A stretch of DNA of 39,582 nucleotides. Source: Helicobacteraceae bacterium (GTDB lineage Bacteria; Campylobacterota; Campylobacteria; Campylobacterales; SZUA-545). The stretch lies in assembly GCA_031288475.1 (NCBI GenBank), contig JAITRJ010000030.1:1-39582 (forward strand), given 5' to 3'. Positions 10,504 to 39,494 of the stretch are shown here, piece by piece; the first letter of the stretch is position 1; each line of letters begins with the position of its first letter. Both the position numbers and the translations under genes were made by a program. Below the pieces are notes generated by a model that saw only the letters and a list, made by a program, of their open reading frames with translations, was not told where the DNA came from and ran no database searches.

Positions 10504-11886
10504 TTAGTTTTTCGCTTCGGCTTTGTATCCGCCACCCAAAGCCTTGTAAAGTTGCACCTGCGCGGCGATATTTTCAGCCTCCGCGCCGTTTAGATTGATC
10601 TGCGCGGTAAGCAAATCGGTTTCTGCGTCGATCACGGCGATATAGTCGTTATAACCCGCCTCGTACTGTTCCCGCGTAAGTTTCAGCGCCTTTCTCAGAT
10701 AGGTCGTCTGCTCCTTAAGCTGTTTAAGACGGGCGGCGGCTTGCTCTTTGCGGCTCAGCGCATCTTTTACCTCGCTGAAAGCCGTCGCCACGCTCTTTTG
10801 ATACTGCGAGATCGCGATCTCTTTCGCCGCTTTCGCCGAATCGACCTGCGCGCCGATACGCCCGAAAGAGAAGATCGGCAGATTGATCCCTATCCCAGCC
10901 CGCGCGCTTTGTGATTCCTGATTGAAGAGATCACCAAGCTCGGCGCTTTGAAATCCCGCCGCGCCCGTAAGCGAAATAGAGGGCAGATATTGCGCTCTCG
11001 CCGCGCCGATCGAATAGTTGGCGGCTTTGAGCTCCTCTTCGGCGGCTTGGATATCAGGACGGCGCAAAATCAGATCGCTCGGCAGATTGGCGCTCGGCAG
11101 CATCCTGGACGGAAATCTGTCGCTAAGTTTGGTTTTCCCCTCGAAAATAGCCTTGGGCGTTCGTCCAAGCAAAACGGCAAAAGCGTTCTCCGCCGCCTCT
11201 TTCTGACGTTTAATGTCAATTAACTGCGCTCTCGTGCCGTTTAAGTTCGCCGCGACCTGACTAAGGATCAGCTCGGTAAGCGCCCCCGCCTCCGCCTGCG
11301 ATTTTCTAAGCGCGTAAGCCTGCTCCTTGCCTTGCAGCATCTCTTCTATATCACGCTCGTTGCAAGTCAGCGCAAGTAGCGAATAATAGCCTTCAATCGC
11401 GCCGCCGATCAGCGAAAGCCTGATCGTCTCCCGCGTAGCCTGCATAGCTAAAAGCTGCGAAAATGCGGACTTTTTGCTATCGCTAAGTCTGGACCAGAGA
11501 TCAACCTCAAAGCTGAGCGTTCCGCTCAGAGCGAAACTGTCGGCATTGATAAACTTGGAACTGTCCAGCGAATCGCGCACCCAAGTTCTGGCGCCCTCGC
11601 CCGAAACCGCGAAATTGGGATACTGCTGCGCTTTCGCCAGCCCCAGAGCGGCGCGCGCGCGCGCCACATTGCCCGCCGCGATCGCCAGATCGTGGTTGCG
11701 TTCTAACGCCTCCTTTACAATCTCGTTCAGATCGGGATCGTTAAAGCCCTCCCACCACGAATCGCCGATGGACAGATCGCCGCCTGCGCTTTCGGGCAGA
11801 TCGTTCGCGGGCGCTACGTATGAGGGCGTAAGCGAACAGCCGCCGAAAAAAAAGACAATCGCGAGCAATATAGATAAGTTACGCAT
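10504..11886 (-). CDS. cmeC: RND efflux outer-membrane channel lipoprotein (CmeC/OprM type)
   Basis: This is the outer-membrane exit duct of the tripartite pump. The 460-residue protein begins with a lipoprotein signal ending in the lipobox FFGGCS (Cys near residue 18). It has the two repeated outer-membrane efflux domains of the TolC/OprM superfamily, with long helices rich in Ala, Glu and Gln (for example RLKQLKEQTTYLRKALKLTR) and the motif LPSDLILRRPDIQAAEEELK. The start at 11886 is chosen because the ATG overlaps the end of the pump gene by 8 bases and gives the lipobox; the frame to 11985 lies inside the pump gene. The symbol follows Campylobacter usage by position and family. Confidence 0.9.
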   Translation of the reverse strand: MRNLSILLAIVFFFGGCSLTPSYVAPANDLPESAGGDLSIGDSWWEGFNDPDLNEIVKEALERNHDLAIAAGNVARARAALGLAKAQQYPNFAVSGEGARTWVRDSLDSSKFINADSFALSGTLSFEVDLWSRLSDSKKSAFSQLLAMQATRETIRLSLIGGAIEGYYSLLALTCNERDIEEMLQGKEQAYALRKSQAEAGALTELILSQVAANLNGTRAQLIDIKRQKEAAENAFAVLLGRTPKAIFEGKTKLSDRFPSRMLPSANLPSDLILRRPDIQAAEEELKAANYSIGAARAQYLPSISLTGAAGFQSAELGDLFNQESQSARAGIGINLPIFSFGRIGAQVDSAKAAKEIAISQYQKSVATAFSEVKDALSRKEQAAARLKQLKEQTTYLRKALKLTREQYEAGYNDYIAVIDAETDLLTAQINLNGAEAENIAAQVQLYKALGGGYKAEAKN

Positions 11887-14800
11887 TGGCGCCCTTTTTA
11901 AACAGTTTGGCGAAAAAATCCCCCACTTTGCCCATATGGACGTAAAACAGCGGAATGTAAAAGATCGCGATAAAAGTCGCGGCAAGCATACCGCCTATCA
12001 CGCCCGTGCCAATCGAATGGCGGGCGGCTTCGCCCGCGCCCGCGCCGATCGCCAGCGGCATCACGCCCAGCGTGAAGGCGAGCGAAGTCATAATGATCGG
12101 GCGGAAGCGCAGCTTCGCCGCCTCGATCGCCGCCTCAATATGCCCGTAGCCTTCTTCGCGCTTGTTCATAGCGAACTCAATGATCAAAATAGCGTTTTTC
12201 GCCGCGAGACCAATCAGCACCACAAGCCCTATCTGAAAGTACAGATCGTTGTTTAAGCCTCTCGTCCAGACAGCGAGGATTGCGCCGAATACGGCGAACG
12301 GCACCGCCGCAACAACAGCAAGCGGCATCAGCCAGCGCTCGTACAGCGCAGCCAAAATTAAAAACACCAGTATTACGCCGAAAACAAACGCCTGAATGCC
12401 CGTGCCACTCATCGCCTTTTCCTGATAGGAGCTGCCCGACCACGCCAGCGTGTAGCCTTCGGGCAGCACCTCCGCGGCTACCTCTTCGATCGCCTCGATC
12501 GCCGCGCCGCTACTGATCCCTGGTTTCGGCTCGCCCGTAATCTGCGCGCTGGTAAACAGGTTGAAGCGCTGAACGACATCGGGACCCAGCGCGCGATTAA
12601 CCTTTACGAGGGCGCTAAGCGGGATCATTTTCCCCGTATTCGATCTCACGAATACGTCCTCTAAGTTTTCGGGGCTTTTTCTGAAATCGCCCTGCGACTG
12701 CATCATCACGCGAAAGGCGCGGGCGTACATATTAAAATCGTTGATATAATACGCGCCGAAGGTCGCCTGCATCACGCCAAAAAGATCACTGACTGATACG
12801 CCGAGCATTTTCGCCTTATCGCGATCAAGCTCGATTCGGTACTGCGGCGTATCCACGTCAATCGTGCTGCGTACCTGCATCAGCGCGGGATGCTGGTTGG
12901 CTTTATCGACAATCTGATTTATATACTTCGCCAGATCGCGGATGCTACCGCCCGTGCGATCCTGCACGTGCATTTCAAAACCGCCGCCGATGCTTAAGCC
13001 TGTAATGGGCGGAAGATTTATGGCGTAGATCAGCGCGTCGGAATTGCGCATAAACTTCCCGATAAACTGCCCAGCTAACGCCTGCGAATGCTGATCGGCT
13101 CTGGTGCGCTCTGACCAGTCGATAAGGTTGATAAATCCTGCTCCCGCACTTGGTTTGAGGGCGTTGGACATCATATCGATCCCGCTCATCAGCGTCGCGT
13201 ACCGCACAAGAGGACTTTCCAGAATAATGTCCGCCACGTCGTCCATCACCTTCTGCGTGCGTTCCAGCGAGGAAGCGGGCGGCAGATTGGCGATCACCAG
13301 CAAACCACCCTTGTCCTCCATAGGCACCAGCGCGCCCGGGACGCGCTCAAAGAGATTGTAGGCGATATACATCAGACCTATGAAGATCAACACGAAAACC
13401 GCGCCGAAGCGTACCGTCTGACGCACTCCCTCCGAAAAGCTCTTCGTAACCCACATAAAAAACTGGTTAAACAGACGAAGCGGCAGGATAGGCTCCGGAT
13501 CGTGAGCGCGCAGCAGCACGCCGCATAGCGCGGGCGTAAGCGTCAGCGCGACGAAGCCCGAAATAATCACGCTGAGAACAATCGTCGTAGCAAACTGCTT
13601 GTACATCTCGCCCGTAAAGCCGCCCATAAGCGAAACGGGAATAAAGACGGCACATAAAACCATCACGATCGCCACGATCGGTCCCGTAACTTCGCTCATC
13701 GCCTTGATCGCCGCCCGCTTGACGCTTAATTCGGGGTATGTTCTTAATATCCGCTCGACGTTCTCAATAACAATAATCGCGTCGTCCACCACGATCCCAA
13801 TCGCCAGCACCAGCGCGAAAAGCGTCAGCAGGTTTATCGAAAAGCCCAGCGCGTAAAGCCCCGCGAACGCGCCGACGATCGACACGGGTACGGCGAGCAT
13901 AGGTATAAGTGTGGCGCGCCAGTTTTGCAGGAAGAAGTAGATGATAAGCATCACGAATAGCAGCGCTTCGCCAATTGTCTTAAACACCTCGTTGATCGAA
14001 ATGCGCACAAACTTTGTCGTGTCGTACGAAATCGCGTAGCTGATCCCTTCTGGGAAACGCGTACTTAAATCCTCCATAACGACGCTCACCGCGTCAGCGG
14101 TCTCCAGCGCGTTCGCGCCCGATTGCAGAAATATGGCGATCGGTATGGTCGGCAACTTGTTCTGCTTCGCGCCGAAGCTGTAGTTTTGAGCGCCAAGCTC
14201 AATCGCAGCTACGTCTTTTAGCCTCAAAAACGTCCCGTCCGCTTCGGCTTTGATAATGATATTGCCAAAACTTTCGGGATCGGCAAGCCGCCCTTGAGAG
14301 ACAATGGTGTAGGTATACATCGTCCCGCCGTTTTCCAGCGGCGACTGCCCGAACTGACCGGGCGCGTATTGCGCATTCTGCTCGCGGACAACGTTGATCA
14401 GGTCTGTGGGCGTAAGGTTGTATTTGGCTAAAAGATCGGGGCGCAACCAGATGCGCATAGCGTAGTCCTTGCCGCCGAAGATCACCGCGTCGCCAACGCC
14501 TTTGATCCGTTTAAGATCGTCCAGCACGTTCAGCAGCGCGTAGTTGTTGATGTATATCGCGTCGTAGCGATCTGGATCGCCGCGCATAGTGATGATCTCC
14601 AGCATCGTGTTGGTACGTTTGCGCACCGTCACGCCCTGCTGCTGCACCTCCTGCGGCAGGCGCGAGATCGCGCCCTGAACGCGGTTATAGACGTTAACCG
14701 TCGCGTCGTCGGGATCCGTGCCCGTTTCAAACGAAACGGAGATCATCACCTCGCCGCTTGCCGAGGCGCTTGACTGCATATAGAGCATATTCTCTACGCC

Positions 14801-15013
14801 GTTGATCGCCTGCTCGATAGGGGAGGCGACGGTGGCTGAGGCGGTTTCCGCCGAAGCACCCGGATAGCTGGTCATAACCATAACCTGCGGCGGCACGACC
14901 TGCGGATACTCCTCGACAGGCAGCGCCCGCATAGCGATCACTCCCGCCAGCACGATCACGATCGACAGTACGCTCGCTAAAATAGGGCGATCGATAAAGG
15001 TTTTCGAAAACAT
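11879..15013 (-). CDS. cmeB: RND inner-membrane multidrug transporter (CmeB/AcrB type, HAE1 family)
   Basis: This proton-driven pump exports drugs, bile salts and similar compounds from the periplasm and inner membrane to the outer-membrane duct. The 1044 residues match AcrB (about 1049). It starts MFSKTFIDRPILASVLSIVI, the standard first transmembrane helix. The proton-relay Asp pair is in GIVVDDAIIVIENVER (fourth helix, near 405). Two repeated halves are visible, the second carrying AAKNAILIIEFA with the relay Lys near 935. It follows the adaptor gene by 9 bases and overlaps the channel gene. Confidence 0.95.
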   Translation of the reverse strand: MFSKTFIDRPILASVLSIVIVLAGVIAMRALPVEEYPQVVPPQVMVMTSYPGASAETASATVASPIEQAINGVENMLYMQSSASASGEVMISVSFETGTDPDDATVNVYNRVQGAISRLPQEVQQQGVTVRKRTNTMLEIITMRGDPDRYDAIYINNYALLNVLDDLKRIKGVGDAVIFGGKDYAMRIWLRPDLLAKYNLTPTDLINVVREQNAQYAPGQFGQSPLENGGTMYTYTIVSQGRLADPESFGNIIIKAEADGTFLRLKDVAAIELGAQNYSFGAKQNKLPTIPIAIFLQSGANALETADAVSVVMEDLSTRFPEGISYAISYDTTKFVRISINEVFKTIGEALLFVMLIIYFFLQNWRATLIPMLAVPVSIVGAFAGLYALGFSINLLTLFALVLAIGIVVDDAIIVIENVERILRTYPELSVKRAAIKAMSEVTGPIVAIVMVLCAVFIPVSLMGGFTGEMYKQFATTIVLSVIISGFVALTLTPALCGVLLRAHDPEPILPLRLFNQFFMWVTKSFSEGVRQTVRFGAVFVLIFIGLMYIAYNLFERVPGALVPMEDKGGLLVIANLPPASSLERTQKVMDDVADIILESPLVRYATLMSGIDMMSNALKPSAGAGFINLIDWSERTRADQHSQALAGQFIGKFMRNSDALIYAINLPPITGLSIGGGFEMHVQDRTGGSIRDLAKYINQIVDKANQHPALMQVRSTIDVDTPQYRIELDRDKAKMLGVSVSDLFGVMQATFGAYYINDFNMYARAFRVMMQSQGDFRKSPENLEDVFVRSNTGKMIPLSALVKVNRALGPDVVQRFNLFTSAQITGEPKPGISSGAAIEAIEEVAAEVLPEGYTLAWSGSSYQEKAMSGTGIQAFVFGVILVFLILAALYERWLMPLAVVAAVPFAVFGAILAVWTRGLNNDLYFQIGLVVLIGLAAKNAILIIEFAMNKREEGYGHIEAAIEAAKLRFRPIIMTSLAFTLGVMPLAIGAGAGEAARHSIGTGVIGGMLAATFIAIFYIPLFYVHMGKVGDFFAKLFKKGANA

Positions 15014-15022
15014 CCGTCGCCT

Positions 15023-16102
15023 CTAATTCTGCGGCGTTTGGTCTGGAATCGGTGCGACGGGCGAACCTGGGCGCAGTTTCAGCAGATTGTTCAGAATAAT
15101 CTGGTCGCTATCCTTCACGCCTTCGCTTAAGATCAGGAACCGATCATTTTCGGCTTCGATCGTTACGGAGCGTCGCATAGCCTTGCCGTTTTCGACCACA
15201 TAGATGAATTTGCCTTCGGGCATTTGCAACAGCGCCTCCGACGGAATGCGGAACGCATTCTTTTTGACTATGCCCGTTAATACCACGCGCGCGAACTGAC
15301 CTGGCATAAGCTCGCCTTTGGGATTGGGAAGAACGGCGCGCGCCTTGACGCTTCCAGTGTTCGCGTCGATCGAGGCGTCCACAAAGTCAATCCTGCCTTC
15401 GCTTCGATACTCTATGCCGCTTTCGCCTTTAACGAACACTTTTATTCCGACGGGATTAGCCCAATCGCCCTTTTCAATCGCGTACTCGGTTTTAAGCTTT
15501 TCTATATTGGTAAAGGAAAACTCCGCATAGAGAGGATCGGTTTTGGTGATCGTCGTAAGCAGCGTTCCCGCGGAGATCAGGTTGCCTGCGTCCAGCGCGA
15601 TCTGCCCCGCGAAGCCGTCGATGGGCGCTTTAACGCGGGTGTAGCTTAGGTCCAGCGCCGCGTTTTCCAGCGCCGCTTTCGTGCTTTCGTAAGCCGCCAG
15701 CGTCGCGTCGCGATCCTTTTCGCTGACCGCGTTACTTGAAAAAAGCTTCTGCGTCCTTTTATACTCGCGCTCAGCTTGATTGAACGCCGCCTGAGCCGCG
15801 TCTTTCGCCGCCGCGTATTTGGCGGGATCGATAACGAACAAAACCGCGTCTTTTGCAACGCGGCTGCCTTCTTTATACTCCTGACTGAACAGCGTCCCGC
15901 CCACTTTGGCGCGCACTTCGACAAAGCCGGAGCTTACCAATTTGGCGGGATACTCCAGAGTAATGGGCAGATCGCCGCCCCGCGCCGCGAAGGTTTTTAC
16001 CGGTACGGAAGGTGTTTGCGGCGTTCGCGCCTGCTGATCGTCCGGCTTGCCTTCGCAGCCTAAGAAAATTATGCCGATCAAAACAATCAGTGCCTTTTTC
16101 AT
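15023..16102 (-). CDS. cmeA: RND efflux periplasmic adaptor lipoprotein (CmeA/AcrA type)
   Basis: This adaptor joins the inner-membrane pump to the outer-membrane channel. The 359-residue protein has a lipoprotein signal with lipobox IIFLGCEG (Cys16) and a barrel-sandwich (lipoyl-like) half from VEVRAKVGGTLFSQEYKEGS. A helical hairpin follows around AAFNQAEREYKRTQKLFSSN, then the second lipoyl half YTRVKAPIDGFAGQIALDAG and a beta-barrel with FVDASIDANTGSVKARAVLP. It is the first gene of the pump operon. AAGGA precedes the ATG, and two GTAAC...GTTAC inverted repeats lie within 100 bases upstream. Confidence 0.93.
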   Translation of the reverse strand: MKKALIVLIGIIFLGCEGKPDDQQARTPQTPSVPVKTFAARGGDLPITLEYPAKLVSSGFVEVRAKVGGTLFSQEYKEGSRVAKDAVLFVIDPAKYAAAKDAAQAAFNQAEREYKRTQKLFSSNAVSEKDRDATLAAYESTKAALENAALDLSYTRVKAPIDGFAGQIALDAGNLISAGTLLTTITKTDPLYAEFSFTNIEKLKTEYAIEKGDWANPVGIKVFVKGESGIEYRSEGRIDFVDASIDANTGSVKARAVLPNPKGELMPGQFARVVLTGIVKKNAFRIPSEALLQMPEGKFIYVVENGKAMRRSVTIEAENDRFLILSEGVKDSDQIILNNLLKLRPGSPVAPIPDQTPQN

Positions 16103-16131: not shown

Positions 16132-16148
16132 CGTAACCGCTCGTTACG
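16132..16148 (-). promoter_or_regulatory. Efflux operator O1 (inverted repeat)
   Basis: CGTAAC at 16132-16137 and GTTACG at 16143-16148 form a perfect 6-bp inverted repeat with a 5-base spacer. It lies just upstream of the candidate -10, so a bound TetR-type repressor would block the promoter. Its half-sites match those of O2. Confidence 0.6.
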
Positions 16149-16184: not shown

Positions 16185-16200
16185 TGTAACAGCCGTTACA
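16185..16200 (-). promoter_or_regulatory. Efflux operator O2 (inverted repeat)
   Basis: TGTAAC at 16185-16190 and GTTACA at 16195-16200 form a perfect 16-base palindrome with a 4-base spacer. From memory, the CmeR operator of Campylobacter jejuni is a 16-base inverted repeat of the same outline (TGTAAT, spacer, ATTACA). Its centre is about 52 bases from that of O1, roughly five helical turns. Confidence 0.65.
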
Positions 16201-16294: not shown

Positions 16295-16903
16295 TCAGCG
16301 TGAAGCGACGCCGATCCCGTTGAGAAAAAAATTGATGGCATCTTCCATTGCCGCCGTCTTCTCTTCTCTGGTCATCTGTTCCTTATGCCCCAGAAGCCGC
16401 TTTAGATTGAACGGCTCTTTTATCAGCCAGAAAAACCGCGTCGACAAAACAAATGGATCGCCTTCGCGCAAAAGTCCTTCGTTCTGCCACCGCCTTATGT
16501 AGTCCGTCAGCACATTCATAATACTCATAAAGCCGCGATTAAAAATGATACGCGCCAGCCGCCCATTATCCGAGTGGGCAATCTTCACCAGTGAAAAAGA
16601 CTGATCACTCATAAAATAATCAAAAGCTCTCATACCAAAAACAAAGAGAAACTCTCTGATATCAAGATTTTCATTGTCCTCACATAGCTTCCTGAAGGCA
16701 AGGGATTCGTCCGCCATCTTCGCCTCCAGCGCGGCGGTAAACAGCTTCTCTTTTGAACCGATGCGCTTATAGATCGTAGAGAGCGACCCCCCCCCCGCCG
16801 CCTTTATAATCAAACTCATCTTCGCCTGATTGAAGCCCTTGGCAAGAAAGACCTTGAACGCCGCTTCCAATATCAAATCGCGCTTTTTATCAAACGAACC
16901 CAC
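16295..16903 (-). CDS. cmeR: TetR-family repressor of the efflux operon (CmeR-like)
   Basis: This 202-residue regulator has an N-terminal TetR helix-turn-helix (about 8-55: RDLILEAAFKVFLAKGFNQA, then MSLIIKAAGGGSLSTIYKRI, then GSKEKLF). A helical ligand-binding C-terminal part follows. It lies directly upstream of the RND operon in the same orientation, as cmeR does in Campylobacter. Drug or bile release of the repressor is the expected mechanism (inference). The HTH contains a run of ten G (16787-16796) that encodes the Gly-Gly-Gly. Close relatives as I recall them have AGGSLST with one Gly fewer, so the present copy may be one codon long. A TGCTACAAT box lies 43-51 bases upstream. Confidence 0.85.
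   Translation of the reverse strand: MGSFDKKRDLILEAAFKVFLAKGFNQAKMSLIIKAAGGGSLSTIYKRIGSKEKLFTAALEAKMADESLAFRKLCEDNENLDIREFLFVFGMRAFDYFMSDQSFSLVKIAHSDNGRLARIIFNRGFMSIMNVLTDYIRRWQNEGLLREGDPFVLSTRFFWLIKEPFNLKRLLGHKEQMTREEKTAAMEDAINFFLNGIGVASR
16787..16796 (-). repeat. G10 homopolymer in the tetR reading frame
   Basis: Ten C on the plus strand, ten G on the coding strand, inside the recognition region of the TetR HTH. G tracts of about this length vary by slippage in Campylobacter and Helicobacter. Gaining one G puts a stop seven codons past the tract; losing one changes the whole downstream frame. Confidence 0.8.
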
Positions 16904-39484: not shown

Positions 39485-39494
39485 CCCCCCCCCC
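39485..39494 (+). repeat. C10 homopolymer outside genes
   Basis: This is a run of ten C in non-coding DNA, the same length as the G10 tract in the tetR gene. It could vary in length and alter spacing of a promoter for a gene beyond the window. A TATAAT is seen at 39573-39578 in the plus strand. Confidence 0.6.

Follow-up and report, generated by a model that had tools for sequence, protein, structure and literature searches.

Can a run of guanines in the DNA-binding domain of a transcriptional regulator switch an efflux pump on and off in part of a bacterial population? The question is raised by a gene within a 39,582-nucleotide stretch of DNA (the window) from a Helicobacteraceae bacterium, represented by a MAG of 71% completeness. 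An initial annotation of this DNA had placed a tract of ten guanines (G10) in the DNA-binding domain of an efflux repressor and proposed that its length changes could make drug resistance phase-variable. Phase variation through polyG tracts is already known, as are frameshifts at homopolymers in efflux repressors. Searches of the open-licence literature under these terms turned up nothing on a phase-variable CmeR, or on a CmeR or other efflux repressor switched by a homopolymer. The answer that we favour, at a probability of about 0.55, is that the gene encodes a CmeR-type repressor whose G10 tract was grown by slippage and is prone to further slippage, with frameshifts probably shedding derepressed cells in a reversible way. 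Most likely, the repressor works, and its coding sequence is unusually slippery.

The repressor gene and its efflux operon

The gene (16295..16903, minus strand) starts with GTG, encodes 202 amino acids and is the single cmeR-like copy in the MAG. Its assignment as a CmeR-like TetR-family repressor draws on Pfam, on profile A1 and on the dN/dS ratio given below. Both the TetR_N domain (30.4 bits, cut-off 24) and the TetR_C_7 domain, the AefR-like C-terminal domain (50.5 bits, cut-off 22), score above the Pfam gathering thresholds. When profile A1, comprising ten family members, was searched against solved structures, the closest relative by sequence was CmeR of Campylobacter jejuni (E 8.3e-43). 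In the fold search CmeR ranked only eighth (TM 0.73), with a Mesorhizobium TetR, FrrA and MexL ahead of it; the AF2 model (mean pLDDT 88) resembles TetR-type repressors including FrrA, MexL, CmeR and NalC. In alignment A1, the effector domain of both species that carry G10 is without four residues which most relatives have after KIA (around residue 110), and ligand binding of these repressors may therefore differ too.

Downstream lies a tripartite RND operon, read in the same direction as the repressor gene. It encodes a CmeA-like periplasmic adaptor (15023..16102, minus strand; TIGR01730, 229 bits, cut-off 94.9), a CmeB/AcrB-like permease of 1044 amino acids (11879..15013, minus strand; ACR_tran; NF000282, 1345 bits, cut-off 1250) and a CmeC/NodT-type outer-membrane efflux channel (10504..11985, minus strand; OEP; TIGR01845, 313 bits, cut-off 210). 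The gene order is the same in the sister species (G002) and, over the part that its contig covers, in a further member of the genus (G001).

The interval between cmeR and cmeA holds a predicted CmeR-type operator, the inverted repeat TGTAAC-N4-GTTACA (16185..16200), which is the one site in the window that matches TGTAAY-N4-RTTACA. Equivalents are present in G002 and G001, i.e. in all three members of the genus, and near 18 of 25 CmeR relatives; the operator of C. jejuni CmeR is TGTAATAAATATTACA (PMC7344827). A second inverted repeat, CGTAAC-N5-GTTACG (16132..16148), lies nearer to the pump genes and is a possible second operator, of which G002 has a related imperfect copy.

Taken together, the domains, the relatedness to CmeR, the RND neighbours and the operator identify a CmeR/CmeABC-type locus. 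As in C. jejuni, a TetR-family protein with an AefR-like C-terminal domain is encoded directly upstream of an RND operon, with TGTAAY-N4-RTTACA between them (PMC7344827, PMC4488513). The "efflux repressor" of the initial annotation is thus borne out as a TetR-family regulator adjoining an RND operon, for which a role as repressor is likely from the sequence, and the pump would be its target. Any part in drug resistance would be by analogy with Campylobacter CmeR/CmeABC, the organism here being an uncultured MAG.

The guanine tract and the additional glycine

The tract is a C10 run on the plus strand at 16787-16796, hence G10 on the coding (minus) strand. Exactly as annotated, it encodes the glycine run of AAGGGSLST, the coding strand reading AAG GCG GCG GGG GGG GGG TCG CTC TCT ACG (KAAGGGSLST) across it. 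The ten bases comprise the last G of an alanine codon and three GGG glycine codons. Sequence, alignment A1 and the AF2 model place them in the helix-turn-helix (HTH), at the turn that joins helix 2 to recognition helix 3, and hence in the DNA-binding domain, as had been claimed. Such runs are rare by chance: G8 has six overlapping matches in the window, in two tracts, compared to a mean of 0.49 and a maximum of 3 in shuffled sequences. The second of these tracts, a G10 at 39485-39494 (minus strand), lies 88 bases from the contig end, outside any clear gene and upstream of a chorismate mutase/prephenate dehydratase-like gene.

Computed length variants define what slippage would do to the protein. 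G11 leads to a TAA stop after 45 codons, in agreement with the early TAA announced for it, G9 leaves 90 codons, and the frame is kept by G7, G10 and G13. The run is uninterrupted, in frame and longer than the threshold for polyG loci (9 or more, as in PMC5953494), and a change of one base shifts the frame and ends the protein. In these respects it is like polyG phase-variable loci.

It had also been suggested that the protein carries one glycine more than its relatives, and that the run may have grown by one codon from G7 to G10. The alignment confirms the former. The spacing from helix 1 to the recognition helix is 26 in 25/25 distinct CmeR relatives from across the order and 27 in both genes with G10; likewise C. 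jejuni CmeR, of known structure (PDB), has normal HTH spacing (SGGSYSNIY), unlike the protein with extra glycine and G10 described here. The 25 relatives have two glycines in the turn, except for one that has three by substitution, without a change in length. Their glycine codons are mostly mixed (GGC GGA, GGT GGT and so on), and none of them writes the same additional glycine in mixed codons, an outcome that had been named as refuting evidence. Among the relatives compared, the extra glycine is confined to two orthologs, that of the window and that of the sister species, and both write it as GGG GGG GGG within G10. G001, the nearest outgroup that shares the gene order, has GGC GGA at this site. 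Spacing, codons and outgroup together support the view that the run gained one codon in an ancestor shared by the two species. One relative, in G007, has a split gene, the split not being at a G tract.

In the AF2 model, helix 2 (residues 29-35) and helix 3 (41-47) are both kept and the extra glycine falls into the turn. We propose that this turn is extended but tolerated. In MtrR, one substitution in the HTH (G45D) is enough to abolish DNA binding (PMC8053128).

Guanine runs and selection in the genus

In 298 kb of the genome, we counted 8 G/C runs of at least 9 bases where 0.3-0.5 are expected (about 16- to 27-fold; P about 1e-9 to 6e-8). No such excess is found for G/C runs of 7, and A/T runs of at least 9 are depleted (3 versus 14-30 expected). 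Across the whole MAG, runs of at least 8 G begin at 44 positions. In five genomes of the family, neither MutL nor MutS1 was detected above cut-off, the controls being positive. Judged by eye, many tracts lie in or near envelope-like genes (acyltransferase, glycosyltransferase, NeuB-like synthase, TonB-type receptors, repeat lipoproteins), and the recognisable products of tract genes are mostly surface- or envelope-like, not regulators. Of 43 tracts, 11 are found no more than about 210 bases from a contig end (P about 5e-10), the repressor tract not among them; heterogeneity, repeats or poly-G read artefacts may account for this clustering.

Several further tracts were observed in passing. Two contigs (C35:1-66 and G002 C57:1-91) open with near-pure long poly-C, maybe sequencing artefacts. 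In the sister species, the context tagttaaaaa(a)(c/t) followed by G9 to G16 recurs (L091, L093, L095, L097, L104, L117, L118, L120) close to where the genes of a putative lipoprotein family begin, a multi-copy family of polyG-linked surface genes of which some have RCC1-like repeats. In the genome of the window species, facing G8 and C9 runs (GGGGGGGGACCCCCCCCC; G000:C37:15307-15326, L087/L088) are found close to the start of a gene for a NeuB-like synthase.

A search of GTDB contigs for other assemblies of the window species found only the sister MAG, deposited as Helicobacteraceae bacterium Cc175_bin116, a name from which we guess a termite gut origin. Three G runs are common to both species by position. 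In a methyltransferase-like gene, the run is G9 and out of frame in the window species (G000:C54:1758) versus G16 and in frame in the sister (G002:C27:10258), a direct on/off difference. In an SDR-family gene, G21 (G000:C45:7660) compares to G8 (G002:C48:21922), both in frame; growth of the run accounts for five additional glycine codons. Genes for an acyltransferase (C3:2208), a glycosyltransferase (G002 C22:28547) and an SGNH-type protein (C14:28700) are split at their tracts. The frame difference in the methyltransferase-like gene and the genes broken at runs show that frame switching by G runs occurs in the genus.

Unlike these two other orthologous tracts, the repressor tract has kept its length and frame. 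The ortholog in the sister species has 80% amino acid identity, diverged flanks, a 202-codon open reading frame and the same G10 in frame, without any difference in length between the two genomes that carry the tract, each of them a consensus. Between the two species dS of the repressor gene is 0.81 and dN/dS 0.12, similar to the pump genes (dN/dS 0.08-0.16); the in-frame repressor is thus favoured and under purifying selection. For phase variation as initially proposed, then, the frame effects of slippage and the genomic setting of frame-changing polyG genes speak in its favour, and the two known copies of the repressor tract itself are both G10. A single fixed length had been named as refuting evidence, and the two genomes go part of the way towards it.

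Equal in-frame length and a dN/dS of 0.12 are also what might be left by a passive relic. The run would have lengthened through slippage in a genome poor in repair, with the extra glycine tolerated and frameshifted cells selected out, leaving a mutable tract and no beneficial switch. We take this to be a serious alternative, somewhat short of an even chance. It is in keeping with the SDR tract, which also changed by whole codons with the frame kept, and with the position of the repressor as one regulator among tract genes that are mostly of the envelope. The enrichment of G runs while A/T runs are depleted, however, argues that G runs are kept in this genome for a reason. Moreover, silent third-base changes could break the run, since GGC is the preferred glycine codon and GGG makes up only 17% of glycine codons, yet it is unbroken in both species. 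By fourfold-site identity, the probability that both species retained three GGG codons by chance is 0.24-0.41, not significant alone.

A further explanation holds that the tract acts by whole codons, G7, G10 and G13 altering the length of the HTH turn and hence the affinity or specificity of the repressor rather than turning it on and off. The insertion lies exactly at the turn between helix 2 and helix 3, and the G10 lineage has TGTAAC half-sites and the second inverted repeat where G001, with two glycines, has one TGTAAT site. TGTAAC half-sites also adjoin relatives with two glycines, however, which uncouples the operator change from the insertion, and we dropped the idea that the extra glycine is tied to a change from TGTAAT to TGTAAC. 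Three-base steps should furthermore occur less often than one-base steps, and we regard this explanation as improbable. That the true run has another length on which the consensus settled at G10 is hardly credible: the MAG is incomplete and long poly-G stretches at contig ends look artefactual, but G10 and the open 202-codon frame recur in two separately assembled species with diverged flanks.

A proposed slippage-prone repressor and its precedents

The favoured reading, a working repressor with a slippery tract, suggests the following course. In the ancestor of both species, the stretch coding for two glycines in the HTH turn would have become an uninterrupted G run, which then gained one codon, from the equivalent of G7 to G10. 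In a lineage that is without detected MutS1 and MutL and is rich in long G runs, G10 would slip frequently at replication. With one G lost or gained, the repressor would be cut short (at 90 or 45 codons, respectively). A small part of the population would then express the pump unrepressed, and a second slip would restore repression. The rate of slippage, the derepression of the pump and any advantage of the switch are what this course would presuppose.

Related systems are known. Rv0678 (MmpR5) of Mycobacterium tuberculosis is a MarR-like protein. It, too, is the repressor of an RND-type pump and has a G run within its gene, and frameshifts in this homopolymer have arisen repeatedly and independently in clinical isolates whose bedaquiline resistance is raised (PMC10353445). 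Unlike the tract described here, it is a mutation hot spot of 6 G in a pathogen under drug, its run being neither expanded nor the source of an extra residue. In a C. jejuni isolate, a T insertion truncated CmeR (stop after residue 193); the protein did not bind promoter DNA, and CmeABC was overexpressed (PMC4488513). The polyG contingency loci of Campylobacter and Helicobacter are alike in their coding G/C runs, in undetected MutS1 and MutL and in several frame-changing genes per genome; a polyG gene of C. jejuni switches at a rate of 2-3 x 10^-2 (PMC8437040). Their usual targets, however, are surface-modifying genes (PMC8437040), whereas here the target is a transcription repressor with equal tract lengths in two species. 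The polycytidine tract of mga in group A Streptococcus is likewise a homopolymer in a regulator, with a reversible switch and protein length variants (PMC10330708), but it is a C8 near the 3' end of the activator of M protein and concerns neither an efflux repressor nor an HTH.

The locus is a clear case of a homopolymer that adds one residue to a DNA-binding turn whose length is fixed in all 25 relatives compared. A wider interpretation, that the G run of CmeR makes efflux phase-variable and bet-hedged in a gut-associated Campylobacterota lineage without clinical drugs, three-base steps also tuning operator binding, is at present rather unlikely. If the tract does switch, a heritable and reversible mutation would make multidrug efflux vary at random in an environmental gut bacterium. 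The repressor would then parallel, in nature, the homopolymer frameshifts by which efflux is released in tuberculosis under drug treatment.
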